DNA of 64,000 bases, taken from Haloprofundus halobius (GTDB taxonomy: Archaea; Halobacteriota; Halobacteria; Halobacteriales; Haloferacaceae). How positions within the stretch are numbered: the stretch's first letter is position 1; every line of letters starts with the position of its first letter. Under the pieces are notes generated by a model. It was not told where the DNA came from, did not search any database, and worked only from the letters and a program-made list of their open reading frames with translations. This document shows, in pieces, positions 28,686 through 62,941 of the stretch. The DNA lies in the NCBI RefSeq assembly GCF_020097835.1, contig NZ_CP083666.1, forward strand, positions 2,976,001 to 3,040,000. Direction: 5' to 3'. The position numbers were made by a program, and so were the translations under genes.

Positions 28686-28827
28686 TCATTAGGATGTCGT
28701 GTAGTTCCCGATTTCTGGAATTACATATGTGATATTTGGCACCGAGTGGTGTTGCTCGCCTCAGTTGCATGCGAAGGTTTCAGCGAAGACAATACTTTCT
28801 TCACATACTACTGTATCTGTGTTGTCA

Positions 28828-40504: not shown

Positions 40505-41680
40505 CAGGCTGCTTACTCCTTGCAAGTAGTGACTTCCTGTTCAATGCTTCGACAAGCAGCGTTTGTTCCGATCGAGAAAAGGTAGTACCGATGACTACAC
40601 CACCAGCGAATTTATGTACTCTATCCCTCACTTCATGGTTTTGAAAGGGGTATGGCGAACGCCAATTATTAATTCTGCCAAATTTCGGGAGATTAAATGG
40701 GTATTGTGTACTCTCGCTGCACTGGTGGTTCTGAGGAGCTCATACTGACACGATTAGGTATGCTGGGGCGCATAGAGACGAAATTGTTTCTCAAGAGAGA
40801 AGAGAGCGAATCTGTTCTGACCCATAAATACGAGCGATTAGAAACAGAATGTAACCCTGAACCCTGTAGTTTAGTCAAATGTGACGAATTAACGGATTAG
40901 AATGGTATATGTGAGGACATAATCGCAGGCTGTTTTCTGAAAAGCGACATTACCACTGCGGAATAAATGTCCGAAATCAGAAGACGGGTTTTTGAGTATA
41001 ATCTACAATCAATTTCTTATTTGGACAAGATTTAAATGGGAAGGACTCGTCGGTAGATGTAGCTAAGATAGGTGATACAGTGCCCGCGTGACGTTCACAC
41101 CCTGCCAGGTCCGTCGTCACGGGGGCCAACAACCCGGCATTATGGCGAAGTATCCGCCTCACCGAGTACAAAGAGTGCTACGTGTGGGATTCGGATAACT
41201 CCTTCGCTGTTTTGGCGGCCTGAAAAACGGACCCTCGCGAACCCAGGAGGTGCGTTCATGACGGACGACTTCCTGGTGCGTGGGTCGATGTAAGCCCCTT
41301 TCGTCAGAGCTACTCGACTTGCTATTGGGTGACGTCCGATATACTGTGGGAGATGGCTGTTTGGTTTCTCCTGACAGTCGCAGTAGTACTTGACACTCTA
41401 CGTGTTCGGCTGAGAAGGTCGTAGTGCCGACTCTGCCGGGCTCCGTAGATCTTACCACAGACAAAATTGGGGATGTCACGCCCGCGGCGCCGAACAAGGC
41501 CCGTTTGGTCCCAGAACCGTATGGGTGGCCTCACAAATCTGTCGGTTAAGAGCGATCAGATTAGCACCGTATAGAAATTATCCGATCTCTATTTCGGACT
41601 TCAAGAGAATTCTCGGAGAAACCATTATGACACATATTCACAATCCCGCACCCAGGCGTGCACAAGAAGAGGTACCGTAG
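40505..41680. other. 1.2-kb region without a supported gene
   Basis: Several short frames (up to about 110 codons on the minus strand around 41159-41497) cross it, but none has a plausible start context or recognised motif. AT-rich patches alternate with GC-rich ones, so it may contain a decayed gene or insertion. It separates the divergent DpdJ-like helicase and the Cas4-SF1 gene. A ribosome-binding site, GAGGT, is seen at 41669-41673 before the next start. Confidence 0.4.
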
Positions 41681-46183: not shown

Positions 46184-49100
46184 ATGCAATCTCCACAAGA
46201 CACTCTCGACGCGGCAGTCGGTAGGGCCGCCGAAATCACGTGGTGGAATCGCCGTATGACGAAACTCACAGGCATTGACGGAATCTCGAACGCACAGTCG
46301 TTCGTCTCCGAAGAGCTCATCGAACGAAAGGGTCCGTTCGTCGAGTTCGTCGATGCTCCGAAGTTCCACGAACAGACAGCCGCCGCGTTCCTCGACGAAC
46401 TCGGCTACGACGAAACGATTACAGAGACGATCATCGCCGAGCTGTTCGGTGGTAACGAATCCGGATCGCTGTATCAACACCAAGCCGAGATGATTCGGCA
46501 AATCGAGACGACTAACCGTGACAATATCCTCGCAGTGCCTACGGCAGCTGGTAAGACGGAGGCGTTCTTCCTACCGATTCTCAACTATTGCCTCTCGACA
46601 GACGAGGAAGGGCTGAAGTCGATCATCCTGTATCCAATGAAGACGCTGGGTGTCGACCAGTTGAACCGGTTCATTACCTACCTCGATCACATCAATCGAT
46701 CACGCGATCCTGACGACCGGATTACGATCGGCATCTGGGACTCCGACACCCCACAACGAGTTGGAACACGGAGTTACGAAGTTGAAGAGGGATCGTACAT
46801 CAGAGGTCTCGTTGATCCCCGGGATGAGAGTGAAAAGCTTCGGGTCCTCAGTAACACGAGTGTCGGAACGGACGACAACCAGTACTCGTGGATTCGAGTC
46901 ACCCGCGAGGCCATCCGACAGGGGGTTGATATCCTCCTGACTGTTCCGGAAGCACTCGATTACATGTTCGTCTCGAACAACGACGAGACGAGAGGTCTGC
47001 TCGGTGATAACCCCGGTGATCAACCCCTCAAGCATATCGTCTACGACGAAGCACACGTCTGGAGCGGGATACAGGGGGCGGCAGTCTCGCTCTTGTCCCA
47101 GCGGTTAAAAGCATTTTACGCCGAGAACGATCCGCAGGTGACGATGGTTTCAGCGACAGTCGATAACCCACGATCACTTGCTGCATCACTAGCTGGCGTG
47201 GAGACTGAGCCCGCGGATATCAACGCTGTCGAGTTCACTCCGCGGGGTTTCCGGATCAACGGTGAGCCTTCGTTCGACCGCTTCGCTCCTTGCGATTTGA
47301 GCGACCTCGTCCACGCGCTCGCAGTCGCCGCGCTCGATGTCGAGAACGCTGAAGCTCTCGTTGAGGAGTTGGACGTTGCGAACGGAATTGCAACACTCGC
47401 TGAAGTCGGTCTCGTTGACAGCGACCAACTTACGGTCTCTTCGGATACACCTGAGTGGGCTGTCAAGCCCATTGTGAGAACTGTCGCGGAGCTACGAGAA
47501 CAGGACGAATTCACAGATGCTGACGACGTTCTTCGGTCGAAGTCGGGACGAAGCCGAATCGTAGAGACCGTAATCGAAGAGAGCGGATTCACGAGCGGCT
47601 GGTACGACTACGTCATCGACTCCGTTCCCGAAGTGGCTGCGTTCACCGAGTGGTTCGACACGGGAACGACTGGTGTTGTCGGGTTCAAAGCGTACGATGC
47701 GTTGCTCGAGGACGCCGCAGAACGAGGCGCAGACGTACCGAAGGGTACCGTCGAGACCGTTATGGCGTTCGGTCGACTCGCTGGCATCGTGACCGAGAAG
47801 TACCATGTGTTCCTCAAGCCACCGCACAGGGTCTTCTGGTGTCGTAGATGCGAGAGGCTCACGCGAGACGAACGGTGTTCGGAGTGTGGGGACGCGCTTC
47901 CCGAGGTCCGATTCTGTCGAACCTGTCACGAGCCGTACGTGGAACTCGAAACCGAGGAGGATGAGGTATTCGTACCAATCGACTCGGCGTCACGGTCTGA
48001 GCACTGTCCCGGATGTGGTGGACGTCCAAAGCTCAACGACGTGGGCGTGCCGACATCTTCGCTTCTCTCGTACATGCTGACCGAAGTCTGCCACGTGACT
48101 CCGTCGAAGAAGACCCTCGTCTTTTCCGACTCTCACAGCGCAGCGGAGAGCGTCGGTGACACGATTATCGAGACGGAGTACGGCCTCATGGCGCAGACGC
48201 TCTACCTCGAAGAACTCATCGAGGAGGGTGGAAGGGCCGATAACTACGACCTGTACGTGACGGTCGCATCGCGGCTTCAGTCGGAGTACTGGGACCCGCT
48301 CGTCCAGAACCAGATCGACGAAGACTCTGAGGCGTACAACTTCCTGCAACCGCTCCAGAAGACGATCAGGAACCACGCCGGTCTCTCAAACTGCGATTCG
48401 CTCCTCGATAGCGCACTCGTCACTGGAGACGTCGTCGCCGACCGCTCAGACCCTGTCGAGATGACAGTCGCTCACGAAATGTACAAACAGTTCGTACTGA
48501 ACAACGCGTCGTTCACGTACAACAGAGTCTCGTTCAACGGTCTAACACGGTCGAAGCTTCTCGATAGATTAGACGACCGACTTACACTCGAACGTGGGCG
48601 AATCGACGATATCGTTGACGACGTGCTCGCGGACATGCTCGAAGCGGGTATCGTCTCGATCATGCCCTTCGACGACGTCAAACAATCTGTAGACTCGTCG
48701 AACGCAGACGGTTCCAAGCTCGAAGAGCTTCGGACGTACCTTGAGTCAGCACGAGAGCAAGTCAACCAGATGGGCGTTCTCGACGAGCCGGCTGATAGCG
48801 GTATCTTCACTAGGATTATCACGAAGGACCGTTCTGAACTCGTTCTTCTCTCGGAAGTCGCGTTCTGCGAGGAGTGCTATTCGTCACATCCGGTGACCCA
48901 AGATGGGGATGCAGTTGACCGCTGTCAGCATTGCGGTAATCCGATCTACGTGTACCGCCGGTTCTCCGAGACGAGTGACGGCACGCTCACCGCAACGCCT
49001 GGCTACGCTGATGTCGACTCAGAGTGGGAGTACGCCCTCGACCACTGGGCACACGACGTAACGCGACCGATTCAGAACGGGCAATCTCCAGAGTTCGTAA

Positions 49101-50917
49101 CAGTCGGGATCCATAAAGGGAACATCCCGCACACCGTCCGGGGGGCAATTGAGGAGAGTTTCCGGAAGGAAGACCCCGACGTAAACATCGTGAGTTCGAC
49201 ACCGACGATGGAACTCGGTGTGGACATCGGGAGCCTCGACACAGTCGCTCAAGTCGGAGTCCCGCCGACGCTGACGAACTACGTACAGCGGTCGGGGCGT
49301 ACGGGACGGACGCGGGGTAGTTCTTCGCTCGTCATGACCGTCGTTCGTGGCCAGCACCCTGTCGACGGGCACTACTACGCCAACCTCGACAGCTACCTCG
49401 GTGGCTTCGAACCAGTCCGTGTCCCCCATCCGTACGATTTCGACGAACTACTCGCCGGTCACGTCGCGACCGAAGTGTTCGCCTACCTCGCGCGGAACCC
49501 ACACGAGACGAACGTCTTCATGCGTATGTACAGCATTCCGGAACCCGAACGTGAGAATCTTACCAAGTTTGTCTCTGCCGTCCAGGAGCGGCTCGGAATT
49601 CTTACGGAGTTCATCACGGAAGAGAGAGCAGATGTTCTTCGTGAGCACGTCGACGAAGTGTTCGGTGAACGCGGCGTCGAGGTGTTCGATCGAATCTTCT
49701 TGGACGGGGGACCACTCTCTCTGTCGACTCGTAGCGAACAGACGTTCGGTCGGCTGCGAACTATGTCGAGCGGTGCGACGGCGAATCGTGACCTCACGCA
49801 GAATGCGAGCCGACTCGACCAGTGGCTCGACAGACTCGGCTACCTCGCCAACTATCGGTCGTTCGGTCAATCCTTCCCAGTCAAGTTCAGCGGGTACAGT
49901 GACGAGATCTCGTTCGAGAGTAGCGGACGACTTTACGACATGTACCCCGGTGAGGAGAACGACCTCGGAGCGTTAGTCACTCTCCACGGAACTGACTACC
50001 TCGTCGGCGACGTCCGCGGAACTCCAACGGCGCTCGCCGAGGTCGCCATCTGCGACAACGAGGAGTGTGACCGTCGCTTCCAGAGTTACGATACCAGTGA
50101 AGTAGAATGCCCCCACTGTGATTCGGAGCTCAAGACGACCGAGGTTCACGGAATTGCCAACGTAGAGTGTCAACTCGCCCGTGGGGCACAGAGTGGTTGG
50201 CGGACACACGGCCAGATGTCGACGTACATCGAAACCATCGACGACGGGGGGATGGAGACGAAGGAGACGACACTCTTCGGGCTTCCGTGTGAAGTCGAAT
50301 ACGGGCAGTACGAAATCACCGACTTCGTCTACGCCTTCGAACGAGGTCACTCGACCAGTCCGGATACCACGGTCATCCGGTCTGAAGCGCTGATCGAAGA
50401 GGACGAGAGTGAGACCTCGTCGTCGAGTGGTCTTTCGTGGCGTGACCGCCTCAACGAGGCGGAGGCACAGAAGTACCGCCCAGTAGGGCAACAGTACCAC
50501 ACTCAGGGGCTCACCCTTCGATTCGACCGCAAAGCACTCGAAGAACGCTACAACCACGTGAGCCACGACACGAAATCATGGCCACAGGCGCTCACCAGCT
50601 TGGAACAAGCGCTTCAGCGTGCTGTTGCGATTGTTGCCGAATGTGACCGTAGTGACTTCCGGATCAAATCGACGACGACTGGCGACACCGTAAAAATCTC
50701 CCTGGTCGACAGTCGGCAAGGTGGTAACGGCATCACGTGGCGCGTCCAAGAGAGCCTCACTCAGGTTGGAGCACGGGTCGACGAAATCGCCGACTGCGAC
50801 TGTGTCTCCTACTGCGACGAGTGTCTCCTCCTCTCGCGGACGCCGGCTCACTACCTCGAGAACGACTTGCTCGACCACCGGTCACTCGCTGCAATCATCG
50901 GGGTGGCGAGCGCGTGA
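46184..50917 (+). CDS. Very large DEAD/DEAH helicase with zinc fingers and DUF1998 C-terminus
   Basis: This 1577-aa helicase has motif I PTAAGKTEAF (about 120), DEAH in VYDEAHVWSG (about 286), SATVDN (about 322), STPTMELGVDIG (about 1005) and QRSGRTGRTRG (about 1035). Three zinc-binding areas are visible: CRRCERL... CSECGD... CRTC... CPGCGG (about 550-612), CEECY... CQHCGN (about 898-920), and CDNEECD... CPHCDS (about 1290-1313). The end (about 1455-1565), with SRQGGNGITW and CDCVSYCDECLLL, is a DUF1998/MrfA-type zinc-binding domain. Related helicases occur in DISARM, Druantia and dpd systems. The stop overlaps the next gene by 4 bases. Likely an ATP-driven DNA translocase that unwinds targets for the nucleases. 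Confidence 0.88.
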   Translation: MQSPQDTLDAAVGRAAEITWWNRRMTKLTGIDGISNAQSFVSEELIERKGPFVEFVDAPKFHEQTAAAFLDELGYDETITETIIAELFGGNESGSLYQHQAEMIRQIETTNRDNILAVPTAAGKTEAFFLPILNYCLSTDEEGLKSIILYPMKTLGVDQLNRFITYLDHINRSRDPDDRITIGIWDSDTPQRVGTRSYEVEEGSYIRGLVDPRDESEKLRVLSNTSVGTDDNQYSWIRVTREAIRQGVDILLTVPEALDYMFVSNNDETRGLLGDNPGDQPLKHIVYDEAHVWSGIQGAAVSLLSQRLKAFYAENDPQVTMVSATVDNPRSLAASLAGVETEPADINAVEFTPRGFRINGEPSFDRFAPCDLSDLVHALAVAALDVENAEALVEELDVANGIATLAEVGLVDSDQLTVSSDTPEWAVKPIVRTVAELREQDEFTDADDVLRSKSGRSRIVETVIEESGFTSGWYDYVIDSVPEVAAFTEWFDTGTTGVVGFKAYDALLEDAAERGADVPKGTVETVMAFGRLAGIVTEKYHVFLKPPHRVFWCRRCERLTRDERCSECGDALPEVRFCRTCHEPYVELETEEDEVFVPIDSASRSEHCPGCGGRPKLNDVGVPTSSLLSYMLTEVCHVTPSKKTLVFSDSHSAAESVGDTIIETEYGLMAQTLYLEELIEEGGRADNYDLYVTVASRLQSEYWDPLVQNQIDEDSEAYNFLQPLQKTIRNHAGLSNCDSLLDSALVTGDVVADRSDPVEMTVAHEMYKQFVLNNASFTYNRVSFNGLTRSKLLDRLDDRLTLERGRIDDIVDDVLADMLEAGIVSIMPFDDVKQSVDSSNADGSKLEELRTYLESAREQVNQMGVLDEPADSGIFTRIITKDRSELVLLSEVAFCEECYSSHPVTQDGDAVDRCQHCGNPIYVYRRFSETSDGTLTATPGYADVDSEWEYALDHWAHDVTRPIQNGQSPEFVTVGIHKGNIPHTVRGAIEESFRKEDPDVNIVSSTPTMELGVDIGSLDTVAQVGVPPTLTNYVQRSGRTGRTRGSSSLVMTVVRGQHPVDGHYYANLDSYLGGFEPVRVPHPYDFDELLAGHVATEVFAYLARNPHETNVFMRMYSIPEPERENLTKFVSAVQERLGILTEFITEERADVLREHVDEVFGERGVEVFDRIFLDGGPLSLSTRSEQTFGRLRTMSSGATANRDLTQNASRLDQWLDRLGYLANYRSFGQSFPVKFSGYSDEISFESSGRLYDMYPGEENDLGALVTLHGTDYLVGDVRGTPTALAEVAICDNEECDRRFQSYDTSEVECPHCDSELKTTEVHGIANVECQLARGAQSGWRTHGQMSTYIETIDDGGMETKETTLFGLPCEVEYGQYEITDFVYAFERGHSTSPDTTVIRSEALIEEDESETSSSSGLSWRDRLNEAEAQKYRPVGQQYHTQGLTLRFDRKALEERYNHVSHDTKSWPQALTSLEQALQRAVAIVAECDRSDFRIKSTTTGDTVKISLVDSRQGGNGITWRVQESLTQVGARVDEIADCDCVSYCDECLLLSRTPAHYLENDLLDHRSLAAIIGVASA

Positions 50918-51846
50918 AGCTTGCTGCGGTCAAACGTCGTCTCGAGGCGAACGAAGTCGCCTTCATCCACGACCCAGAGGGTAGTGTCCACTTCTGGAAA
51001 CTCCGTTCACTCCCGGCGCTTCAGCACCTCGGCGTCGGAGATTTCACGTATCCAACGTCGTGGCGACAACTGAAGCAGACGTGGGAGTACGAAAAAGGAG
51101 GGCGGCAGTACGAGTTCCCTGGATGCGACTACCACGTCGTCGGGAATATGGACCTCACAGCTGACGATAATCTCGCCGTAGTCACGACGAGCTACTACGA
51201 GCATCAGACGAAGTATTCGATCAAACAACTGGTGGATCGATACACCGTCAGCGAGGGGACGCTAGTCGTCGTCGCGGACGACCGCACGTTTCAACCCGTC
51301 GGCGGAACTCGTCCGCTATACCAAGAGCAATTTGTCGACCGTGTCGGGTCGTACGAACGTGTCTACGAGGCAATCGAAGAGTCGTACGCCGACGCCGGCT
51401 GGCAGCTCCCGCTTCGAGATACGAAGAACCTCTTCGCACAGGACAATGCAGTTCTCTACAAGTTCGTAGAGGGGACTCGCCTCACGACTGTCGAGGAGCT
51501 CCTCGATGTGTTACCGGATGCGCCTTATCTGCCAATGTACGGGACCTTCTGTGAAATCTTCGCGGCAGCAGATGCACAGGGGAGTGGGCCACTCGAGAAT
51601 GACGACAAAATCGAGGCGCTAGGTGGGTGGCTCAGACGACGCATCGAGTGGGACCGTCAGGAGAGCATCCAAATCGCGCGAGAACTGAATCGGGCTGTCG
51701 CTGATGACGTCGAAACGTTCGATCTTTCGTATGCAGCGCGGAGCCCCAAACATCGAAAAGCGAAAGAGGCGGCGAGAGAATTGACTCCCGAAGAGAATGA
51801 CATCGAATCGAAATATCACGACTGGTTAACGAACGATCTACCATGA
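50914..51846 (+). CDS. Hypothetical protein of the helicase operon
   Basis: GTG at 50914 overlaps the previous stop (GTGA), so I use this start (310 aa) rather than the longer open frame. The sequence is mixed alpha/beta with HDPEGSVHFWKL near the start, a long strand-rich core (VVGNMDLTADDNLAVVTTSYY... GTLVVVADDRTFQPVGG) and a charged helical tail. No catalytic motif, zinc site or nucleotide-binding loop is seen. Its stop overlaps the next ATG (ATGA). The tight coupling to the helicase implies a shared complex. Not recognised; candidate small partner subunit. Confidence 0.75.
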   Translation: MKLAAVKRRLEANEVAFIHDPEGSVHFWKLRSLPALQHLGVGDFTYPTSWRQLKQTWEYEKGGRQYEFPGCDYHVVGNMDLTADDNLAVVTTSYYEHQTKYSIKQLVDRYTVSEGTLVVVADDRTFQPVGGTRPLYQEQFVDRVGSYERVYEAIEESYADAGWQLPLRDTKNLFAQDNAVLYKFVEGTRLTTVEELLDVLPDAPYLPMYGTFCEIFAAADAQGSGPLENDDKIEALGGWLRRRIEWDRQESIQIARELNRAVADDVETFDLSYAARSPKHRKAKEAARELTPEENDIESKYHDWLTNDLP

Positions 51847-52670
51847 GCGAAACTGAAGGTTACATACTGAACACGGTACAGACACCGGCGCCATTACAGA
51901 CCGTCTATCGATCGATCAAGCGCGGCAACACGACGAAAGAGTCAGTCCAAGACGATACTGACCTTCCAGAGAATCTCCTCTCGCAAGGGTTTGGAGGCCT
52001 ACAACAGATCGGTCTAATCGGGCGCGAGGAGCCCGACTACTACACCGTCGACTACCCCTGGGAGACCGGAGATGACGATTTGAACTTTCGTCTGGCCGCC
52101 CTTCACCAGCTCGCGTCGAATGCAACGCCGGACAGCTGGGGGAAACAGTCAGTCGTCCTGCTGAACTACCAATATTTGCTCGAAGAGAACATTCAGACGT
52201 TCAAGTCAAATTCCGAATCCACTTATTCCCGAATGAATCGCTTCGCGAGAGAGCGAGGGTACGAACCCCGCTCTCAACAGGGCCCAATTGAGATGAATGA
52301 GCCTAAAATGATCAACTGGTCCCGCTTAGCGAGGTTTCTGGGTCTCATCTACAAAGCCAGTGGTCGTGTCTATACGACGTATCCAGATGAAGAGTTGGTT
52401 TTCGAGTCAATCAGACTCGCCTCGAACGCCGCTGGCCGTGAGAGAATCACGATCCAGTTCTACGAAGAGTGGCTCAACGACAATTTGCTCCTCGTAGACA
52501 TGGGCCCAGATGGTGTTCCTGCCCCGCTCTCGCGTGTTCTGTTCAACCTTGTCGCAAACGACCGGATTAGAATCATCGAGTCAGGGGACGCTGGGGCAAT
52601 CAATCTCCAACAGGTTCCCCTTCGACGAGGGATCGACAGTCAGGCAAACTCTATCGAGGTACTCTCATGA
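51843..52670 (+). CDS. Possible winged-helix subunit of the operon (DpdG-like by position)
   Basis: This 275-aa protein begins with a winged-helix-like segment (residues about 5-65: LQTVYRSIKRGNTTKESVQDDTDLPENLLSQGFGGLQQIGLI). The rest is helical with an RLARFLGLIYKASGR segment near 165 and a second possible winged helix at the C-terminus (VPAPLSRVLFNLVANDRIRIIES). It overlaps both neighbours by 4 bases. Its place directly before a large P-loop ATPase recalls the DpdG-DpdH gene order of bacterial dpd clusters. That match is from memory of gene order only, not sequence. Confidence 0.7.
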   Translation: MSETEGYILNTVQTPAPLQTVYRSIKRGNTTKESVQDDTDLPENLLSQGFGGLQQIGLIGREEPDYYTVDYPWETGDDDLNFRLAALHQLASNATPDSWGKQSVVLLNYQYLLEENIQTFKSNSESTYSRMNRFARERGYEPRSQQGPIEMNEPKMINWSRLARFLGLIYKASGRVYTTYPDEELVFESIRLASNAAGRERITIQFYEEWLNDNLLLVDMGPDGVPAPLSRVLFNLVANDRIRIIESGDAGAINLQQVPLRRGIDSQANSIEVLS

Positions 52671-55603
52671 GCAACTATGCGACACCGGTAGAGAGTGAGA
52701 ACGGACGCTGTCCTCACTTCGATGCGGTCGATGAAAAGACGCTACGAAGACTCTTCAGCAAGGTCGCTGCCGTTCGGTCTGAGGACTACGACCTCTTTTC
52801 GTTCACACACCGTCCGATGGAGGTGTACGACGGGTCCGACCCACGCGCTGAACGGACAGTGAGCGAGGACCACGTCTACAGGCAATTCTCCGAAGAACGA
52901 GAGGGGAACTTCGTCGTCGTTATCGAAGGTGTAGTTGGAACGGGTAAATCCGAACTCTGCGCGTATCTCTCGCACCGGCTCGAAACAGAGGACGACCGGC
53001 CAACTCTTCACATCGACAAGAACGACGACCTGATGACGATCCTCTCCGATCGTATTCCCGAATTCTACGAGGAACACTTCGGTGAGGAACTTCCGGGTGC
53101 GAGCGAGTTCAAGAACCTCAAATCAGACATCGAACACAACCCACAGACGGTCGCTAACAATGCAACGTCTGGTGCAATCTTGAATCTCCGACGGTTGGAC
53201 TACGAAGTCGAGACGACCGCAGACCAAGAGAACGAGATCCGTGATTACGTCGCGGACAAACTCGTACAACTCGTCCAGCGAGGAGAGTACGACCGGAAAG
53301 TCCAGTTCGTCGGCGAGAAGGAGTTCGAACAGAACGATTACTTACAGATCTTCGAAGGCGATATTCAATCCAGTGAGGCGGCGAGCGCCTTCGATGCAGA
53401 GCTCTGGCGAGAGATTCGAGATCGGTACGACACCGCCTCACTAGATCAAGTCCTAGAGCGAGTCGGTGAACGATTCGAGGATACACGTCCAGTACTCGTC
53501 TTCGAGGACTTCTCGATCGCTGCGATGGAAGCAAAGAAGCTCCGGAATTATATGGAGCGTGATAAAACGAGTGACAACTGGGACTTCATCATTGCCGGTA
53601 CGCACGACTCGACGGAAGTTCTCCACACACAGACTGCGGGAGACCGTTTCGAGTTCTACCAAACGAACACCCCTAACTCCAACAGTGTACCTTTCCTCAC
53701 CGAACAAACAGCGGTGGACTTCGTTCGGCCATATCTCGGCTATATAAAGAATCACGACGAGAGTGTTCGGTACGACCGAGACGACGACTCGTTCGACCTG
53801 AAATCTGCACCGGCAGGATCGATCTGCGCCGGGTGCGGATTCTGCGACGAGTCATTCCGCGATCTCTTCCCGTTCAACGAACCGTTCCTCCGGAGAATCT
53901 ACACGAGCCTCGAAGAAGATCAACAGTCGCCGCGCGAGTTGATCATGGTCGTGTTCGAAGTTCTTCGGGATTTCTACGACGGAATCATCGAAGTACCGTC
54001 AAGCGCTGATGTTCTCAAGCCGCTCCGGAACACCGTTTCCGTCGCAGACGCCGTCTACGACGAAGCTGAGGAGTACGCTGACTTGGCGAAGTGGTACGGC
54101 GTCGAAGAGGATACCGTAGTAGTCATCGACCGAAAATTTGTCGATGCCTTTGGCCTGTCTGTCGACGGACTCCCCGATGAGATTGAAGTTGGTTCTCAGG
54201 AGGTGCGCGTAAACAAAACTGGTGGCACTAACCCTCCACCAGAGGGATGTCCAAACTGTCATGCACCAGTGTCGAAGTTTATCACTGAATCTGATGGGAC
54301 AATTAAATGCGGCGAATGCAGTGAAATAATAAGTAGGGGGCGTAGCTCTCTTGAGATAAAGGTAGAAGAGGCGAAACAAGAGGTCGACTCTTGGCTCGAA
54401 AAACCTCGAAAGTACCCAGACACGAATATGTATATTCGGCGGGGGCTCAGAGACCTTCTAAAGGATCTCACTGACGACTTCAGACTCTACGAGGGCCAGC
54501 CCCTGCGATACAATCTCAGCAGCGAAAAAGCCCCGTACGTCTACCCGGACTCGAACGATGCACCTCAGTGGGATCAAATCCTCCTCAATCGGGAGGATTT
54601 CCAGCGGTCAGACCTCCGGCAGTTAGTTGAATTTGGCGTTCGGCGAGTTGAGAAGCCACGAAGCGCCAACTACGAGAAGATGCGTGAGCGCATCGGCACG
54701 CAATTAACTGGATACGCAAAACGGTGGCGTCAGCGTATCTTCGAAACACAGCTCGATAATGAGAACGTGTTGTACAAGCAACACGCACAACTGAATTTCT
54801 CTGACTTCCTGCTCGCGTCGTACGCGACGCTCGTTCTTCTCGACGACCCAACGAAGCCAGTAACCGCCGAACGACTCAACGAACGGTACCAAAGCGATGA
54901 GGACCTCTCACTTGATTCGGACCTTAAAAAGGCGCTAAAAGGAGTAGTCGACAAAGCTGACTATCCCCACTTCTCGAATGCGATGGAAGACGCAGCGTAC
55001 GTCGAATCACTAGTTGGAGAGATCTTCGGCGTTTCTGCAAGCGCCCTTGACGTGCCGAAAGTTCGTCGACGGTTGGACCGTAACCCACCATACAAAGTGT
55101 TACAGATGCTCGGTCGCGGCTACATTCAGAACATCGAGGCACGAGTTCGGTTCGAAACCGGACACAACGTCAAGGACTTCGCAGATACGATGTACGACGT
55201 GCGGAAGGTACTCGACGAGGTTGTGAAGCGAGGATACGACGATGAGACGGTGGACTACGTTACATCGACCGTAGAAGGGACAGATATGGACCGAGTCGGC
55301 GAAATATACGATAGCCTGCGAACATACGATGGTGTCGACGCAGAGTTCCGTGAGGCGCTCGGGAAGGTCTGTCGCCACTCGAACGAGGACGTCGTGGCTG
55401 CGGGGGAGACCGCTCGACTCGCCCATGAGTTATCGTCTGGAGACAACTTCGATCAGATTACAGCTGCTCTCGCAAGTCAGAAGCTCTCGAACCTCAAGGT
55501 AGTTACGCGCTTCCGAGAGGTCCCCTTTGCAGGCAAGGGAGGAAGTAGCGGCGACTCGATCGGTGGCCTGTTCCAGGAGGTGAGTTCGCACTATGTCGAG
55601 TAA
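52667..55603 (+). CDS. Large P-loop ATPase with zinc sites (DpdH-like by context)
   Basis: This 978-aa protein has a P-loop GVVGTGKSE (about 89-97) and a Walker B VLVFEDFS (about 276), marking a STAND/AAA-like ATPase. CAGCGFC (about 387) is one metal site. A second, CPNCHAPV... CGECSE (about 527-550), lies in a stretch whose DNA is much richer in A/T than the rest of the gene (54190-54380). The C-terminal half is helical without known motifs. It is coupled by 4 bases to the 275-aa protein before it and overlaps the coiled-coil gene after it by 11 bases. Likely an energy-dependent sensor or loader of the restriction complex. Confidence 0.8.
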   Translation: MSNYATPVESENGRCPHFDAVDEKTLRRLFSKVAAVRSEDYDLFSFTHRPMEVYDGSDPRAERTVSEDHVYRQFSEEREGNFVVVIEGVVGTGKSELCAYLSHRLETEDDRPTLHIDKNDDLMTILSDRIPEFYEEHFGEELPGASEFKNLKSDIEHNPQTVANNATSGAILNLRRLDYEVETTADQENEIRDYVADKLVQLVQRGEYDRKVQFVGEKEFEQNDYLQIFEGDIQSSEAASAFDAELWREIRDRYDTASLDQVLERVGERFEDTRPVLVFEDFSIAAMEAKKLRNYMERDKTSDNWDFIIAGTHDSTEVLHTQTAGDRFEFYQTNTPNSNSVPFLTEQTAVDFVRPYLGYIKNHDESVRYDRDDDSFDLKSAPAGSICAGCGFCDESFRDLFPFNEPFLRRIYTSLEEDQQSPRELIMVVFEVLRDFYDGIIEVPSSADVLKPLRNTVSVADAVYDEAEEYADLAKWYGVEEDTVVVIDRKFVDAFGLSVDGLPDEIEVGSQEVRVNKTGGTNPPPEGCPNCHAPVSKFITESDGTIKCGECSEIISRGRSSLEIKVEEAKQEVDSWLEKPRKYPDTNMYIRRGLRDLLKDLTDDFRLYEGQPLRYNLSSEKAPYVYPDSNDAPQWDQILLNREDFQRSDLRQLVEFGVRRVEKPRSANYEKMRERIGTQLTGYAKRWRQRIFETQLDNENVLYKQHAQLNFSDFLLASYATLVLLDDPTKPVTAERLNERYQSDEDLSLDSDLKKALKGVVDKADYPHFSNAMEDAAYVESLVGEIFGVSASALDVPKVRRRLDRNPPYKVLQMLGRGYIQNIEARVRFETGHNVKDFADTMYDVRKVLDEVVKRGYDDETVDYVTSTVEGTDMDRVGEIYDSLRTYDGVDAEFREALGKVCRHSNEDVVAAGETARLAHELSSGDNFDQITAALASQKLSNLKVVTRFREVPFAGKGGSSGDSIGGLFQEVSSHYVE

Positions 55604-56270
55604 ATCGTTCGAGCAGAGGCTTGAGAAGGTTTACAAGAAGTATCAACACAGCGAACTCGAAAACCGGTTGAACGATGTCGCCCAGACGATGGAAGAGACG
55701 GTCCTTCAGCGGGTTCTCGCTGAGGAGTTCCTTCATACGGACATCGAAATCGACGAGAGAGCAAAAGAAGCCGTCGAAGATGCGAAAGCACACCTGAACG
55801 ACGGCGACCTCGATTCACTCTCGGAGGAGATTGAGGAGTTAGAGCAGATGGTCGACGAAGAGGAGCGTAAGGTAGACAACCGTATCCAGGAAGCCCGAAT
55901 CTCGATGTCGAAGAAGATGAACGGGATGCAGCGGTTGAACCAGCGTGTCGAGCGAGTTAGCGAAATTAAGCTGGAATCAATTGCTAGTCTTCTCGACGAC
56001 TGGAATTGGAAAGAGCAGGTCTACCGCAACGACGACGCAGCTATCGAGACGCTCAAAGACCGTTCCCGTGAGTACGGTTCTGACATGCGACGGTTCTACG
56101 AAGAAGCGAAAGCAGATCTCTTCGGACCGTACAAGGACACTCCGCTGGAGGGAATCGTGGACGGTCTACTCGACGATGAGCGCTTTGCACTTGACGACTT
56201 GAGCGACGCCCAACTCCAACAACTCCGAGACTCGGACTTGGAAGAGCACGTAGAGTTGTCACTATCGTAG
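55593..56270 (+). CDS. Coiled-coil protein, last gene of the operon
   Basis: This 225-aa protein is almost entirely helical and highly charged, with strong heptad-like patterns at about residues 60-140 (LDSLSEEIEELEQMVDEEERKVDNRIQEA). It has no cysteines or catalytic motif. It starts 11 bases inside the ATPase gene, so it is surely co-expressed. It may be a dimerising adaptor in the ATPase complex, comparable by position to the small gene after dpdH in bacterial clusters. Its end is convergent with the TGT gene, with 44 bp between. Confidence 0.75.
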   Translation: MSSKSFEQRLEKVYKKYQHSELENRLNDVAQTMEETVLQRVLAEEFLHTDIEIDERAKEAVEDAKAHLNDGDLDSLSEEIEELEQMVDEEERKVDNRIQEARISMSKKMNGMQRLNQRVERVSEIKLESIASLLDDWNWKEQVYRNDDAAIETLKDRSREYGSDMRRFYEEAKADLFGPYKDTPLEGIVDGLLDDERFALDDLSDAQLQQLRDSDLEEHVELSLS

Positions 56271-56314: not shown

Positions 56315-58366
56315 CTAATCTAGTATCTTCGAAGACTCGATGTCGGAGGACGAAGCGGCTGGATGTTCTTGGAGATAGTCGATGAGCTGCTGAATATTCT
56401 CGTTGCGGAAGTGTTCCGTCAGTTGGAGTGCACGGGGGTCGCGGGGGAAAATTTCACCTCGACCGTACGCCTCGAACGCGTCTTCGATTACCTGTCGGTA
56501 GTTTGAGCTCGCCACATACCCGACGATATAGTCGTACGCATCACCGTGCGTCTCGAGATATTGCGTCACTCGCTTCGTCACGAGCTCACGCTGTCTCGTG
56601 TCTTCGTTCGCCAGCACGTACTCGTACTCAAGAACGGGGTCCCGTTGCTCCATCTCCTGAGGAACTGGACCGTACATCCCCGAAACAGTCACCTTGTGTA
56701 TGCGGTCCGACTGGCTCCCTAACTTGTCCCAGAGGACGGAATGCGTCCGCGATTCTGAGTACGGCTTAACTTGACTGCACGGTATCATGAGGAGTACGTC
56801 TTTGTTCTTCGGTGGCTCGTACCTCATCTGAAGAATATCGAAATCGCTTGGTCGGTGCTTGAGCGAAATCGTCTGAGTCATCTCCAGGTCTTCTACGCCA
56901 CCGCCCCATTCGGTGAGCCGCTTCTGATCGGTCTTTAGCCCAGGCCCTGGTATAAGGTCCTCTGCGCCGATTTCTCGAAGGTCCTTTGTAAGTTGATTCG
57001 TTGGGTCCTGTACCTGTGCCTGTTTCAGTCCTTTAGCGATGTCGGGATGTTCGCGAGCGAGTCCGACGACGTACTCAAGGAGTCGTCCATCTGATATCGC
57101 ATCCCGGACGCGCTGTAACTCGTCGTTGTAGACCTCGAAATTGTGGCCGGCAAGGAGTGCGTAGTAGTCGCTTTTGATCCATTCGTCGTTCTCCTTTCGA
57201 GCTTCGCGTTCGTGATAATCGAGGTTGAGGTTGAGCTCCTCGTTCAGGAGGGTGTAATCGACATTGTATTCACCGCTACACAACGGACAGTTCTCGAGTG
57301 CACACGGGAATTCTCCTCCCTCGAGATACGCATCGAGATCGTCGAGCTTGACGTGTTCCCACGTGTCCGGAACGAGGTACTTCTTGTACATCGCGGTCTG
57401 CATGTGGCTCGAACAGTCGAACGAGTCCGCACCGAGCAGCGAGAGTAGCCCGACCTGTTTCCCACCGATACCGAATACGTGAAGACCGACGTCGTCGTCG
57501 AGCCCTTTCTGTTTTATCGCTTGTTTCGCACCATTGACGATGTTGACTAAGATATCAATACTACTTCGGAGGGGAACGAGCGATCCGATCGCGAATCCCT
57601 CGAACGAGTCTTCGAGGCCCTCTTCTTCGACCCGTTCGATAAATTTCTGAACGTACCAACTGACCCACTCGTCATCGTGTCCGTGGATGGCGATGTAGAC
57701 ACCGGGCCTCTCTTGACCACCCTTTGTGGGATCGAAACCCCCAGTCTGGATTCGCTCGGCCACAGTCGGATTGAGGAGCGTGTCGGTGTCGAACTGGTCA
57801 GGGTTGTCGAGTAATTGGAGACAGCGTATCGAACTCTCGATGCTCTTCCACATCCGTTCTTCGCGCTCTTCAGCGTTCAGGTTCGGCGGAACGGGATAGT
57901 CGAGCGTCGCAACGATATCGGCACCAAAGTCGAGTTGGAGACCGAGGATACTTTCTGGATTCGTGTACAGCCCCCACTCGTTCTCTGCACCGCCCTCTGA
58001 CGGTGCTGCACCGAACGTATCGGAGTTCATGAGCTTGAATCCACCAGAATCGATGAAAATCGGGGCATTCAGGCTCTCGTATTTTTCGTGGAACGTTTCG
58101 GTTCGCCAGAAGTTGTTTAGATTGTCAGGAGAGACGCCATAATCCGTGAAGCTCATGGCTTGAAACATAACTCCTTGGAGATGATCCGCAGAGATGAGTC
58201 GGTCACGCATTCGACTCCATACACCGCCAGATGCCTTTGTTGTCCCTCCGATGAGATTGATAACGGGAAACAGAGCAGGTGTATCGACGGAGTAAGAGGG
58301 GAGGTCGAGAGTCCCGAGTCTCCCGTACCCATCGTCACCCTCCTCCTCGACACGAAAGACAGACAT
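56315..58366 (-). CDS. TGT-like base transglycosylase fused to archaeosine-synthase DUF5591 domain (DpdA-like)
   Basis: This is a 683-aa protein. Residues about 20-400 form a tRNA-guanine-transglycosylase barrel: FIDSGGFKL (about 103, substrate-binding Asp), ATLDYPVPP (about 155), AIGSLVPL (about 255), the likely nucleophile region ADSFDCSS (about 315) and a zinc site CALENCPLC with a later His (about 357-390). The C-terminal part (about 515-655) has LLMIPCSQVKPYS and VSGMYGPVPQEME, the signature of the DUF5591 domain of archaeosine synthase (ArcS). Host tRNA enzymes also carry these domains, but this context (helicases, PLD nuclease, second TGT) and the unusual N-terminal sequence favour a DNA-modifying DpdA-type enzyme using preQ0. 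The exact product is unknown. Confidence 0.85.
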   Translation of the reverse strand: MSVFRVEEEGDDGYGRLGTLDLPSYSVDTPALFPVINLIGGTTKASGGVWSRMRDRLISADHLQGVMFQAMSFTDYGVSPDNLNNFWRTETFHEKYESLNAPIFIDSGGFKLMNSDTFGAAPSEGGAENEWGLYTNPESILGLQLDFGADIVATLDYPVPPNLNAEEREERMWKSIESSIRCLQLLDNPDQFDTDTLLNPTVAERIQTGGFDPTKGGQERPGVYIAIHGHDDEWVSWYVQKFIERVEEEGLEDSFEGFAIGSLVPLRSSIDILVNIVNGAKQAIKQKGLDDDVGLHVFGIGGKQVGLLSLLGADSFDCSSHMQTAMYKKYLVPDTWEHVKLDDLDAYLEGGEFPCALENCPLCSGEYNVDYTLLNEELNLNLDYHEREARKENDEWIKSDYYALLAGHNFEVYNDELQRVRDAISDGRLLEYVVGLAREHPDIAKGLKQAQVQDPTNQLTKDLREIGAEDLIPGPGLKTDQKRLTEWGGGVEDLEMTQTISLKHRPSDFDILQMRYEPPKNKDVLLMIPCSQVKPYSESRTHSVLWDKLGSQSDRIHKVTVSGMYGPVPQEMEQRDPVLEYEYVLANEDTRQRELVTKRVTQYLETHGDAYDYIVGYVASSNYRQVIEDAFEAYGRGEIFPRDPRALQLTEHFRNENIQQLIDYLQEHPAASSSDIESSKILD

Positions 58367-58433: not shown

Positions 58434-60692
58434 CTATACACCTCCAACGTCTGCTTTCATTCTGAAAGCTAGACCTTCTGAAATTGCATCTACTCGAACG
58501 AGTTCATCGAGTGTCGCTTGTTTTAGGTCTGCGACTGATTCAAAGCCAGCAGCAATGAGAGATTCGGCTTCTCCCTCTTCGATACCACCGACGGTACAGA
58601 GTTCTGAGACCGCTTGTGTGGACCCATCTCCAGATGAGCCCGACATGTCATGTGAGTCATCGTCTCGGGGTGTCACATCACCCTCATCGACCCACTCCCA
58701 TCCGTCTACTGATGGACGCTCGGGGAACTTAGCGAGGGCTTTCTTGACGCGTGTGAGTTCGTGTTCTGTCTCAACGAACACTGGAAGTGGCTCAGCGGTA
58801 TCGGGTATCACAGGTACGCGAAGCGACCGTCCCGCATCGACTTTGTCGAGGCTTTCGAGGAGATCTCCAATAACTGGGTCAACTACCGCTGTTTCGATTA
58901 CCTGAAACTCGGTCACGGAGCCACCGTCGCCATACGTAGCTCGATACTCCTTCATGCTAACCTCTGATCGATCCGACTGTTGGGGCCCATACCCGTCTTT
59001 CCATCCCTCCAACCCTGACGAAAGGAACTGTGACAGAAGATCTCGCCACTGACACATCGGTGAATCTGGATTTTCTGGATCGACGTGTTCTACGAGCCCA
59101 TCCACTGCCCGGCTGAGTTGCCAAAATTCCTCATATCGTTCAGCGAGTTCGGATGGCGAGATTGAATGTGAACTAGGGTCCTCTGGAGATTCAGTGTCGC
59201 CAGCTTGTAGAAGGGCATCGACCTCTGACTGTGTCGAAACTCCCGCTGCTGTCTTCAGTTCTGGCCAGGAGTCACAGTATCGGTAAACGTCTTGAGGATT
59301 GTATCTTCCGTACGTGGTCTGTTGCCCAAGTGTTGGAGGCTGTTCGACTTTCTTAGCGACTTCGCGGACGTCCTTGATTAGGTCTGGCTCTGGATCGAGG
59401 TCAGTAGCCACGATTGCCTCGTACCAGCTACCAAATTCGTCTGTGACCTCGTGTTGCTCGAATTTGCCGTGCTCCTCCATGTGAGAACCGTTCGGAACCC
59501 TACCGACTGAATCAGCCAGCCCTTCGAGGGAAGTGATCATCTCGTCGCGTCTCTCGGTCGGATCTCCCTCTTGTGGTTCTGGTACTTCGATCGCTTCCTT
59601 CGCTTCGTCCCAAGAATCGAAGTGGTTGTAGACATCTCCCGACGAGTAGGTCCCGTGTTTGTCCATCTCTGTCGTCGTCGGTAAACGGCCCAAAGACTTC
59701 GCGACAGCTTCTAAATCGTCGAGTACATCCGATCGATAGTCCAGGCTCGTCTCTTCGACCGCAGCCAGCCAACTTCCGAATCGATCGGCATAGAGCTGGG
59801 AGTTGTAGAGGCCATGTTGGTCCATCTGACGTGCAGTCGGAACACGCCCACGTTCCTCGGCCAACTTCTCGATTGCATTACAGAGGTCTTCGTTCGTCGC
59901 GGGATCGACCCGAGATGCCTCTAAAGCTCTCGTCCAAGTTCCGAAAGCTCGTTTTAGCCGGCTGAGTGTGTACTCTCCGTGAACGCCGTATTCGGCGGAA
60001 GTGGGCCGTTTTCCTAATTTCTCGCTAACCGATCGGAGATCATCAAGGAAAACCGCATAATGTCCAATATCCGTCGCTTTGATGACACCCGACCACGAAC
60101 CGAAGTGATCGTAATAGGTGTTGAGATTGTACCTTCCTTCGAGTCTCATATCCTCGTGAGATGGGATACGGTTGAGCTGGTTGGCAAGTTGCTCCACGTG
60201 AGACAGAAGCTCGTCTCGAGATGGCTCGTGGGCTTCGTGTTTGCGTAGTAGGTTTCGAAGATGATGCGAAAACTGATCAAAAGATTCGTCGCTCAGCCCC
60301 TTCGTCTGACCCACAGCAGGTAGATCTCGAATATCATCCAGGAAATCTCGAACTTGAACGGTGTCACTTTCTGAGAGCGGACCAGCTGAATTACTGGATC
60401 GACCCGTCAATTCTACGAGTACCCGTTCGTCGGCAGCGATGAGTTCGGCGTACTCTTCTAGCCTTTTGATATCCTCTTTCAGTGAATCGATGCGCTGACG
60501 TGAGGTTCCATCACTACCAGGCGCGCTCGATCTGAGTGAGTTGAGCGCAGCACAGAGTGAACTATGTGCATTGAGGACTGAGCGATACACTTCGTTCGGG
60601 TCTTCGTGGGCTTTAGAGATTGACTCAAGCGATTGATTCGCATCGTGGATGTACTCGTTCACACCCTCGTCATGGCTACGTGTTCGGGACAC
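58434..60692 (-). CDS. Protein with six homing-endonuclease-associated repeats and C-terminal HhH
   Basis: This 752-aa protein starts at GTG, with an AGGAGA ribosome-binding site inside the preceding gene. A helical N-terminus (1-150) is followed by six repeats of about 52 residues (about 156-485). Each has the form E-L-A-x(3)-G-R-x-P-T-x(4)-M-x(2)-H-G-x-Y then FGSW-x(2)-A. This matches the homing-endonuclease-associated repeat, thought to bind DNA with helix-turn-helix-like units. The rest is unrecognised, and the last 55 residues are a helix-hairpin-helix (ELCTVGGIEEGEAESLIAAG). No nuclease motif is seen. It sits between the 95-aa gene and the TGT in one operon, and could present specific DNA sites to the TGT. 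Confidence 0.8.
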   Translation of the reverse strand: MSRTRSHDEGVNEYIHDANQSLESISKAHEDPNEVYRSVLNAHSSLCAALNSLRSSAPGSDGTSRQRIDSLKEDIKRLEEYAELIAADERVLVELTGRSSNSAGPLSESDTVQVRDFLDDIRDLPAVGQTKGLSDESFDQFSHHLRNLLRKHEAHEPSRDELLSHVEQLANQLNRIPSHEDMRLEGRYNLNTYYDHFGSWSGVIKATDIGHYAVFLDDLRSVSEKLGKRPTSAEYGVHGEYTLSRLKRAFGTWTRALEASRVDPATNEDLCNAIEKLAEERGRVPTARQMDQHGLYNSQLYADRFGSWLAAVEETSLDYRSDVLDDLEAVAKSLGRLPTTTEMDKHGTYSSGDVYNHFDSWDEAKEAIEVPEPQEGDPTERRDEMITSLEGLADSVGRVPNGSHMEEHGKFEQHEVTDEFGSWYEAIVATDLDPEPDLIKDVREVAKKVEQPPTLGQQTTYGRYNPQDVYRYCDSWPELKTAAGVSTQSEVDALLQAGDTESPEDPSSHSISPSELAERYEEFWQLSRAVDGLVEHVDPENPDSPMCQWRDLLSQFLSSGLEGWKDGYGPQQSDRSEVSMKEYRATYGDGGSVTEFQVIETAVVDPVIGDLLESLDKVDAGRSLRVPVIPDTAEPLPVFVETEHELTRVKKALAKFPERPSVDGWEWVDEGDVTPRDDDSHDMSGSSGDGSTQAVSELCTVGGIEEGEAESLIAAGFESVADLKQATLDELVRVDAISEGLAFRMKADVGGV

Positions 60693-60984: not shown

Positions 60985-61234
60985 CTGTCACAACCAAACC
61001 GGTCCTTGCACTTATCACTTTACTTTAGCTTTTAGCTGACACCAGTGTTCTCTACCGAGTTCCCGGTTAGCGCAGTTTCTGCGGATGTGCCGAACTAACT
61101 ATTCACTTTCCACGTAGTCAAGAACCCCCGCACCAGGCAATTTCTGAGAATTTCGAGTGGGGCTGGCCTTTCAAGCTAGTGAAGACGAATCTTTGGTAGT
61201 AAAGAATAAGGCCTCGGCGAAGAGAGACCAGTTA

Positions 61235-61696
61235 ATGTCTTTACTATTGGTCCAATCTTGCTCAAATTCGAAGGTAGAGGCCCCAGGAAGACACCCTGCA
61301 TTGGAATTGTACTCCGGATACTTCTATAAAATAATCAAAAAATCGATAAGAGAGGACGAGTGGCGGTCTGACATGGAGTTGCGAATCCTCTCGGCTGAAC
61401 ACGGCCTTCTTAGACCAGATGATCAGATTAGTTACTACGACCGACGAATGGATACAAAACGCGCCGAAGAACTGCGACCAGAAGTCGTCGCCGAACTCAG
61501 GAGGCTTATTACTGATGAAGAATACGACCGCATTATCGTCAATATGGGGCGCGAATACAGGGCAGCAATAGAGGACTTCGACCGCGGGCTCGACGTCACC
61601 ACAGAGTTCGTCGAAGGGGATGGGATCGGATACAAGGGGCAGGTCCTCAAGCGAGTCATCCGTGGTGACGACACGGCTCTCAAGGTGTCTGCCTGA
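61235..61696 (+). CDS. YaaA/DUF6884-like protein
   Basis: ATG at 61235 (153 aa) is preferred over a GTG at 61157, because the recognised domain starts at once: LLLVQSCSNSKVEAPG, then PALELYSGYFYKIIKKS, then LRILSAEHGLLRPDDQI and YDRRMD. This is the YaaA/DUF6884 pattern. Its SCSxxK motif resembles the PCSxxKPYS motif of the DUF5591 domain fused to the other TGT, so it may do a comparable step on a 7-deazaguanine base. The stop is followed at once by the TGT start (TGAATG). In bacterial dpd clusters a separate protein converts dPreQ0 to an amide; this gene is a candidate analogue, not a proven one. Confidence 0.75.
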   Translation: MSLLLVQSCSNSKVEAPGRHPALELYSGYFYKIIKKSIREDEWRSDMELRILSAEHGLLRPDDQISYYDRRMDTKRAEELRPEVVAELRRLITDEEYDRIIVNMGREYRAAIEDFDRGLDVTTEFVEGDGIGYKGQVLKRVIRGDDTALKVSA

Positions 61697-62941
61697 ATGT
61701 CGTTTGACGTCCCAGAAACCAAAGTAGCTAACTTCGATGTCAAATCCACAATTGGAGATGCTCGATCGGGTACGCTTCGAATAAAGGATACCGAACTCGA
61801 GACGCCTAATCTCCTGCCTGTGCTGAATTTCTACGCCGGAGGGTTGGCACGGAGTCTCTACGGTGGCGGAATCCATCGAACGATGAAGGAGTTCATGACT
61901 GGTGACGACGTAATCGGTGGGGGTGATTACAGCGAGTACTTCGATGGCGTCATGACCTCTGTCGGCTCACTCACCGATTACAACATTTCTCGAGAACGGT
62001 ACGAGGACTACATCGCAGAGCCGGTCAAAGAACGTGAGGTCTTCGAGGAGTTCAATGGGACCTTGTTTTTAGATTCTGGAGGATTCAAATTCCTCGGTGG
62101 ATACGAACTCGACGGCAGCAATTTCGAAGTCGAGATTGATCAAGCGAAAATCTTCGAGATTCAACAGCGGATGGGTGGCGATATCATCGTCAACTTAGAC
62201 CGCCCAATCGCACCGGACGACGACTACGAAACCAGGGTCGAGAAGGCCCGACGGACCGCAGAGAACGTCGTTGAATTTCTCAATCTCTCAGAAGGGACGA
62301 TGAGTGCGCGCTTCTTGACGCTCCATGGGTACAACTACTCCATGCTGGACACCTTTCTCGGGGAAATCGACGATATAGTCGGTGCTTCGCGAGTACACGA
62401 CGAGTTCGATGGTGTGGCGTTGGGTAGCCTCGTTCCGCTCAAGGATAACAAGGGTCGCCTCATAGACGCGATTCAGGACTGCCGGTCCATACTGAAGGAC
62501 TGGGGGTTCGACGACTTGCCGCTTCACGTACTGGGAATTTCGTCGAGTGCGATCCCCCTCTTAGCAGCGGTTGGCGCGGACTCTTTCGACTCCTCGTCGT
62601 ACCTTCACTCTGCAATCAACGGAAAGTACAATACCTCTTTGACAGGGTCGAAATCGATTGACGAAGTCGATTTTAGCAAGTGCAACTGTCCAGTCTGCTC
62701 TAACGAGGTACTGGTGAGTCGAATGAAGGGTAATGCCGAATACCGAAAAGACGAACTCGGACCAGTAGCGATGCATAATCTCATCGTCCAAAAACGCGAG
62801 GTGGCCTATATCAGGGACTGCATCCGCTCACCGGGAACAGACGACCTCATCGAATATCTCGAATCGACACTCGGACAGAACAAATCAATGCGGCTGTTTG
62901 CACACCGCGTTGTAAACGAATCGCTCGGCGGGTACTTCTAA
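61697..62941 (+). CDS. Second TGT-like base transglycosylase (DpdA-like)
   Basis: This 414-aa protein has a TGT barrel: LFLDSGGFKFLG (about 123), IIVNLDRPIAP (about 165), VALGSLVPLKD (about 243), the likely nucleophile region ADSFDSSSYLH (about 295) and a CNCPVC zinc motif with a His in AMHNL (about 331-359). It shares many blocks with the TGT at 56315-58366 (for example LTDYNIS versus FTDYGVS), so the two are paralogues. It has no PUA or DUF5591 domain; the adjacent YaaA-like gene may supply that activity in trans. It directly follows that gene and is one base from the GHKL ATPase gene. It likely exchanges a guanine in DNA for a preQ0-type base. Confidence 0.85.
   Translation: MSFDVPETKVANFDVKSTIGDARSGTLRIKDTELETPNLLPVLNFYAGGLARSLYGGGIHRTMKEFMTGDDVIGGGDYSEYFDGVMTSVGSLTDYNISRERYEDYIAEPVKEREVFEEFNGTLFLDSGGFKFLGGYELDGSNFEVEIDQAKIFEIQQRMGGDIIVNLDRPIAPDDDYETRVEKARRTAENVVEFLNLSEGTMSARFLTLHGYNYSMLDTFLGEIDDIVGASRVHDEFDGVALGSLVPLKDNKGRLIDAIQDCRSILKDWGFDDLPLHVLGISSSAIPLLAAVGADSFDSSSYLHSAINGKYNTSLTGSKSIDEVDFSKCNCPVCSNEVLVSRMKGNAEYRKDELGPVAMHNLIVQKREVAYIRDCIRSPGTDDLIEYLESTLGQNKSMRLFAHRVVNESLGGYF

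Follow-up and report, generated by a model that had tools for sequence, protein, structure and literature searches.

The question raised by this locus is what a tRNA-guanine transglycosylase (TGT) barrel gains from being joined to the core domain of ArcS, and on which nucleic acid the resulting protein acts. The window, that is, the whole stretch of DNA analysed, comprises 64,000 nucleotides of the haloarchaeon Haloprofundus halobius, and the gene in question (TGT1-DUF5591, here called the fusion) lies on its minus strand at 56315..58366, where it starts with ATG and is predicted to encode a DNA-guanine transglycosylase carrying an ArcS-type nitrile-processing domain. The first-pass annotation had described a 683-aa open reading frame with a TGT and a C-terminal DUF5591 domain, and this architecture was borne out by Pfam, which places the TGT barrel at residues 13-441 (57044..58330, minus strand; E 5.4e-22) and the DUF5591/ArcS core at residues 512-636 (56459..56833, minus strand; E 1.1e-19; hhalign against the host ArcS, probability 97.9, E 3.7e-13). 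Both matches are well above the curated cut-offs, and their strength excludes chance. The ArcS-type motifs that had been quoted were also located, PCSQVKPYSESRTH at residues 529-542 (56741..56782, minus strand; residue conservation assessed over 46 sequences) and GMYGPVPQE at 563-571; the former is the complete form of the ArcS motif, PC-x3-KPY-x2-S-x2-H. Alignments of the family were built from 20 full-length haloarchaeal sequences and 26 from other groups, and because the full-length form recurs across these genomes the fusion is no accident of assembly. Modelling against arcTGT, which had been proposed as a check, gave an AlphaFold model with a mean pLDDT of 87 and arcTGT itself (1iq8, E 3e-20) as the best PDB match, and the fusion-family profile matches the DUF5591 structure AF0587 (2q07) over positions 514-637 (E 4e-10). 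No match to a PUA domain was found in the fusion, which stops shortly past DUF5591. Seven genomes (G115, G106, G177, G002, G123, G146 and G253) show an internal stop inside the span matching the fusion; these could be run-past alignments or pseudogenes.

Both halves of the protein appear equipped for catalysis. When aligned with the host arcTGT and a bacterial Tgt, the barrel was found to retain the catalytic aspartate pair D106 and D317, the substrate aspartate D156 and the zinc ligands C355, C360, C363 and H408; D106, D317, C360 and H408 are identical in 46/46 fusion sequences, archaeal and bacterial. The DUF5591 residues C530, K534, P535, Y536 and S539 are identical in the same 46, with H542 present in 41 of them. 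As the catalytic and DUF5591 residues are invariant in this way, neither the TGT nor the ArcS part of TGT1-DUF5591 has decayed; the DSGG segment, missing from the host ArcS, is kept in TGT1. The base-pocket segment of TGT1, G-S-[LM]-V-P, resembles the GAVVP of arcTGT, unlike the GGLAV of bacterial Tgt, and, judged from established TGT structures, would fit preQ0 as the incoming base. The glutamine of tRNA TGTs is replaced by histidine (H228) in TGT1, as it is in the second transglycosylase of the locus, TGT2 (H210). The conserved histidine of DpdA, position 196 in phage 9g numbering (PMC6884629), aligns with H296 of TGT1 (46/46) and H277 of TGT2 (18/18), a correspondence that is non-exclusive because arcTGT has a histidine there too.

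The host possesses a separate set of tRNA enzymes. Its genome (five contigs, 99.7% complete) carries adjacent arcTGT and ArcS genes at C1:184842-187644, away from the fusion, together with RaSEA at C1:219242 and QueC at C1:963881, and no RaSEA was found in the annotated local gene set around the fusion. A host in which the fusion was the sole ArcS gene had been named as the observation that would count against a role on DNA; a canonical ArcS is present as well in all 23 of the archaeal fusion hosts examined, and RaSEA was found in 23/23. Phylogenetic trees place the TGT1 and TGT2 barrels apart from arcTGT, ArcS and bacterial Tgt (split support 84, with some long branches) and split the fused DUF5591 domains from ArcS with a support of 100. 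The fusion is thus not the tRNA enzyme of its host, since arcTGT, ArcS and RaSEA are separate, the PUA tail is lacking and both domains stand apart in the trees.

The fusion has two notable neighbours 3 kb away, a second TGT and a DpdC-like gene, both on the plus strand. TGT2 (414 aa; 61697..62941; Pfam TGT 6.5e-25) holds all the catalytic and zinc residues, with key sites identical in 18/18 sequences, and is matched by the PADLOC DpdA models at 9.5e-6, the fusion being unmatched by them. The DUF6884 protein, which is DpdC/YaaA-like (61157..61696; Pfam DUF6884 1.9e-15, YaaA 7.8e-10), probably starts in truth at 61235, an ATG where its relatives begin, and ends at the base before TGT2. All 16 tested members of its family match PADLOC DpdC, and in the PDB only E. 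coli YaaA (5caj) and AF0587 (2q07) match its model (pLDDT 91) below 1e-3. The YaaA family, DUF328, is the Pfam family of DpdC (PMC12839542). Comparison of DUF5591 with DUF6884 by hhalign superposed CSQVK on CSNSK (probability 74.5, E 2.7e-5), which, together with the PDB matches, indicates a common fold and a common Cys-Lys motif for the two proteins of the locus on the nitrile side. A TGT2 orthologue, defined as a genome-wide match at E below 1e-100, is present in 37/38 fusion carriers versus 42/391 Halobacteria genomes overall (Fisher p 3e-45, uncorrected for shared ancestry), and both TGT2 and the DUF6884 gene occur in 17 of 20 haloarchaeal fusion neighbourhoods. Several related arrangements were also observed. 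On a Haladaptatus plasmid (L145:28767-30731) the fusion is adjoined by a third TGT, which is itself a TGT-DUF5591 fusion but of a second subtype. The Haloferax plasmid pBNX82-4 (L143:8934-13835) encodes a 964-aa protein in which DpdA is joined to a DpdC/DUF6884 domain, and then a 345-aa second TGT; this pair of a long and a short TGT, in another haloarchaeal system, parallels the one described here. The TGT2 profile weakly matches PDB 9ntn 'Cap10' (8.6e-5), a hint of a TGT-like protein serving another defence system. An Aeromonas sequence (NZ_AP026896, H15) considered as a Dpd reference was dropped, as it is an ordinary-looking bacterial Tgt.

The surrounding genes have the character of a restriction island, predicted to serve in defence against viruses. 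A YprA-family helicase with an MZB domain, of Druantia/ARMADA-like type (46184..50917, plus strand; PADLOC DruE3 1.7e-41, DpdJ lower), is accompanied by a second YprA-family helicase of the Dpd branch (DpdJ-like; 36455..40525, minus strand; PADLOC DpdJ 3.7e-47), the end of which is overlapped by a DpdK-like PLD-family nuclease (36034..36486, minus strand; Pfam PLDc_2 2.9e-7, PADLOC DpdK 1.3e-10, tblastn) whose start (MVRAFSLP) was inferred from relatives. The former type of helicase is found in 12/20 haloarchaeal fusion neighbourhoods, the DpdJ-like type in 9/20 and both in 8/20. A four-gene block on the plus strand, conserved in 10 of the 20, consists of a 978-aa DpdH-like ATPase (52667..55603; PADLOC DpdH 5.6e-5 here and 1.2e-6 in a relative) and genes at 50737..51846 (start uncertain), 51843..52670 and 55593..56270 (225 aa), for which PADLOC gave no meaningful match. 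Further members are less certain: an SF1 helicase (41681..46114, plus strand; Pfam AAA_11/AAA_12) is a probable accessory that lies close to the fusion in 4/20 haloarchaea and adjoins it in L127 and L134, with a distant homologue in L127 that bears a PD-(D/E)XK domain, and the membership of an HNH_repeat/HHH protein (58434..60692, minus strand; Pfam 1.1e-80), similar to a protein in 6/20 neighbourhoods, is uncertain. Neither a preQ0 operon nor DpdB was recognised among the window genes scanned. At 28729-36020 the window also holds a 1194-aa protein and a UvrD/PD-(D/E)XK helicase-nuclease, AddAB-like, a combination that adjoins the fusion in G361 as well.

The fusion is sporadically distributed amongst Halobacteria, where it is present in 38/391 genomes and 25 of the 86 sampled genera, with plasmid-borne copies in Haladaptatus and Natrinema. 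A profile scan of GTDB found it, unexpectedly, in Cyanobacteria, Poribacteria and Chloroflexota, and also in a Thermodesulfovibrio, a Deinococcales metagenome-assembled genome and others. Each of the 16 bacterial hosts checked has a normal Tgt and a single DUF5591 gene, all but one have a strong QueC match, and none of the 16 has RaSEA above the cut-off. One of them, Desulfovirgula (L142:8559-10456), has the bacterial split form, a TGT gene adjoining a standalone DUF5591 gene, which is also seen in a Peptococcaceae genome (L141:887-2783). A DpdJ-like helicase adjoins the bacterial fusion in four loci (L108, L112, L130 and L132), L130 having the order DpdJ, DpdK, unknown, fusion, QueD, QueE, QueC; elsewhere the fusion adjoins DISARM DrmA/DrmB (L136), and the cyanobacterial loci contain a GmrSD-type gene and a HEPN gene. 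No DUF6884-like BLAST match was found in the bacterial neighbourhoods examined. In many Poribacteria (L110-L123) the fusion sits amid ordinary metabolic genes with no recognised helicase or nuclease neighbours, so a defence island is not the setting of every family member.

Unfused counterparts are found in viruses, where no direct homologue of the fusion was detected by sequence in phages or IMG/VR. In the Sulfolobus viruses STSV1, STSV2 and STSV4 a TGT-like ORF overlaps a DUF5591 ORF, both annotated as hypothetical (L189:2058-3399, L188:1989-3399 and L190:2004-3417, respectively); the TGT-like ORF was recognised by hhalign (probability 98, E 9e-14; reversed control 0.2%), and the pair is a candidate guanine-modification pair of crenarchaeal viruses. 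The DNA of STSV1 is unusually modified. This is not used as support here, because the modification reported for it affects cytosine (PMC11208441). The fusion model also matches the Vibrio phage nt-1 proteins R9TGF0 and R9TEI9 (DUF5591). Phage nt-1 encodes an ArcS homologue, and its DNA contains mainly dPreQ0, alongside dADG and a low level of dG+, a base also known from phage 9g (PMC6884629). That the two proteins are fused in one lineage and neighbours in another supports their joint action on DNA. In Vibrio phage GR7B (L187:11482-20037) a DUF5591 protein, two QueC genes, genes of GNAT-like type and a radical SAM enzyme resembling lysine-2,3-aminomutase stand in a row, possibly for a lysine-based 7-deazaguanine hypermodification; no TGT was recognised among the DUF5591 neighbours tested. 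A DUF5591-like match in a Synechococcus phage was rejected as a TGT pair, the adjacent gene not being TGT-like by eye.

Taken together, the fusion is best read as a DNA transglycosylase of the DpdA type, one that puts preQ0 into DNA and alters the nitrile of this base, and it probably combines DNA modification with nitrile processing in a Dpd-like restriction-modification island of BRIGADE type I. The fusion, its intact motifs, the co-occurrence of genes and their context are read from the sequence, and we infer DNA as the substrate, preQ0 as the incoming base, the order of steps, the TGT1-TGT2 partnership and the end product. The TGT1 barrel, probably with TGT2, would take guanine out of the cell's own DNA and put in preQ0 supplied by the host's housekeeping pathway. 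The ArcS-type domain would then use its conserved Cys-Lys-Tyr motif on preQ0 already bound in DNA, attacking the nitrile so that lysine, ammonia or water is added; the DpdC-like DUF6884 protein may carry out a similar reaction, either on that DNA or on what TGT2 produces. The finished base would act as a self mark, and the YprA helicases, the DpdH-like ATPase and the PLD nuclease would attack DNA that lacks it. The earlier proposal that preQ0 is inserted and turned into archaeosine on DNA thus divides in two: context, phylogeny, TGT2, the bacterial occurrence and the unfused viral counterparts lend good support to DNA as the target, whereas archaeosine as the product is not supported, since the best-studied ArcS needs RaSEA (PMC11298593), which is absent from the annotated local gene set and, above the cut-off, from the 16 bacterial hosts. 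Those ArcS enzymes go no further than attaching lysine, and the radical-SAM enzyme RaSEA completes archaeosine; the ArcS of Thermococcus kodakarensis transfers lysine, accepting even the preQ0 nucleoside, with RaSEA needed in complex for activity and G+ (PMC11298593). In bacterial carriers, which lack RaSEA, a family-wide reaction would end at the lysine adduct, at direct amidation or at hydration.

As to the finished base, a lysine or other amine adduct, dG+ and dADG are each possible and to the same degree, and some other product is unlikely. A preQ0-lysine or related amine adduct might be the final mark of cellular DNA in archaea and bacteria alike, with the ArcS domain transferring lysine unaided by RaSEA and with TGT1 and TGT2 working on DNA as a heterodimer, although this fuller proposal is rather speculative. 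That the fusion makes deoxyarchaeosine in DNA, with the host RaSEA finishing the lysine adduct or with direct amidation, is conceivable if somewhat doubtful: the ArcS motif is intact, every archaeal host has RaSEA and dG+ is known in the two phages, one of which bears an ArcS homologue, but the 16 bacterial hosts have no RaSEA above the cut-off and nt-1 DNA is mainly dPreQ0. It is a tentative possibility that the base is dPreQ0 or dADG, formed in the manner of bacterial Dpd by TGT1/TGT2 together with the DpdC-like DUF6884 protein, leaving DUF5591 as a second amide-former or a binding aid. The high frequency of the DUF6884 gene in the neighbourhoods, the DpdC matches of its family and its YaaA/DUF328-like fold agree with this, and in Dpd it is DpdC that makes dADG, according to the summary in PMC12839542. 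Against it, the active-site motif of DUF5591 is as invariant as the catalytic residues of the TGT, and the bacterial fusions have no DUF6884-like BLAST match in their examined surroundings.

Two further explanations would remove DNA modification from the account. TGT and ArcS are tRNA enzymes, and this, with the ordinary gene neighbourhoods of the Poribacterial copies, counts for the fusion being a second archaeosine-type enzyme of tRNA or other RNA. Such a role is improbable given the separate arcTGT in its own genome, the ArcS of every archaeal host examined, the missing PUA tail, the sporadic spread (38/391), the Tgt owned by the bacterial hosts and the defence and DpdJ context; it is further weakened because bacteria, which to our knowledge make no tRNA archaeosine, carry the fusion. 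A decayed or moonlighting protein with no role in modification, for example a subunit that binds DNA for the restriction arm, might be suspected from the internal stops in the matched span of some relatives, but the conservation of all catalytic residues across archaea and bacteria makes it very improbable.

With the DpdA-type DNA transglycosylase as the preferred reading, BRIGADE, a defence class named in 2025 without a chemistry, gains a specific and testable one. A 7-deazaguanine hypermodified by a single fused enzyme is predicted in the DNA of many haloarchaea and of some cyanobacteria, Poribacteria and Chloroflexota. DUF6884/DpdC on DNA and DUF5591/ArcS on tRNA appear to be one fold working on the preQ0 nitrile, which joins two biochemical stories.

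Comparison with known systems places the locus amongst several relatives. From arcTGT (1iq8) it takes the TGT fold, the catalytic Asp and zinc residues and a preQ0-type pocket, but arcTGT is a tRNA enzyme with C-terminal domains including PUA, and its glutamine is H228 in the fusion. ArcS likewise joins a TGT-like region to a DUF5591 core that bears PC-x3-KPY-x2-S-x2-H, but in ArcS the TGT-like region is degenerate and there is a PUA tail; the fusion has intact TGT residues, no PUA and a clade of its own. The DpdA2 and ArcS homologue of nt-1 similarly bring a TGT-like and a DUF5591 protein into one DNA-modifying genome, although as separate phage proteins with no restriction arm (PMC6884629). 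Dpd (DpdA-DpdK) shares a TGT-type DpdA, a DpdC-like protein and relatives of DpdJ, DpdK and DpdH, whereas the island has two TGT paralogues, one with an ArcS core, and no recognised DpdB. With its two YprA helicases, PLD nuclease and DpdH-like ATPase the island fits BRIGADE type I, which the preprint by Bell et al. 2025 describes from halophilic archaea only (PMC12458937). The two agree in the ARMADA/Druantia-like and Dpd-branch YprA helicases (assigned here by best PADLOC matches, DruE3 and DpdJ), the PLD nuclease, the predicted 7-deazaguanine cluster (here TGT1, TGT2 and DUF6884) and the halophilic archaeal host, and differ in that the modifying enzyme found here is also present in several bacterial phyla. 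The main text of the preprint gives no enzyme identities and no TGT or DpdA for that cluster (PMC12458937); what is added to BRIGADE here is a DpdA-like TGT with its catalytic residues and an ArcS core, a near-obligate second TGT, a DpdC-like partner and a spread into bacteria.
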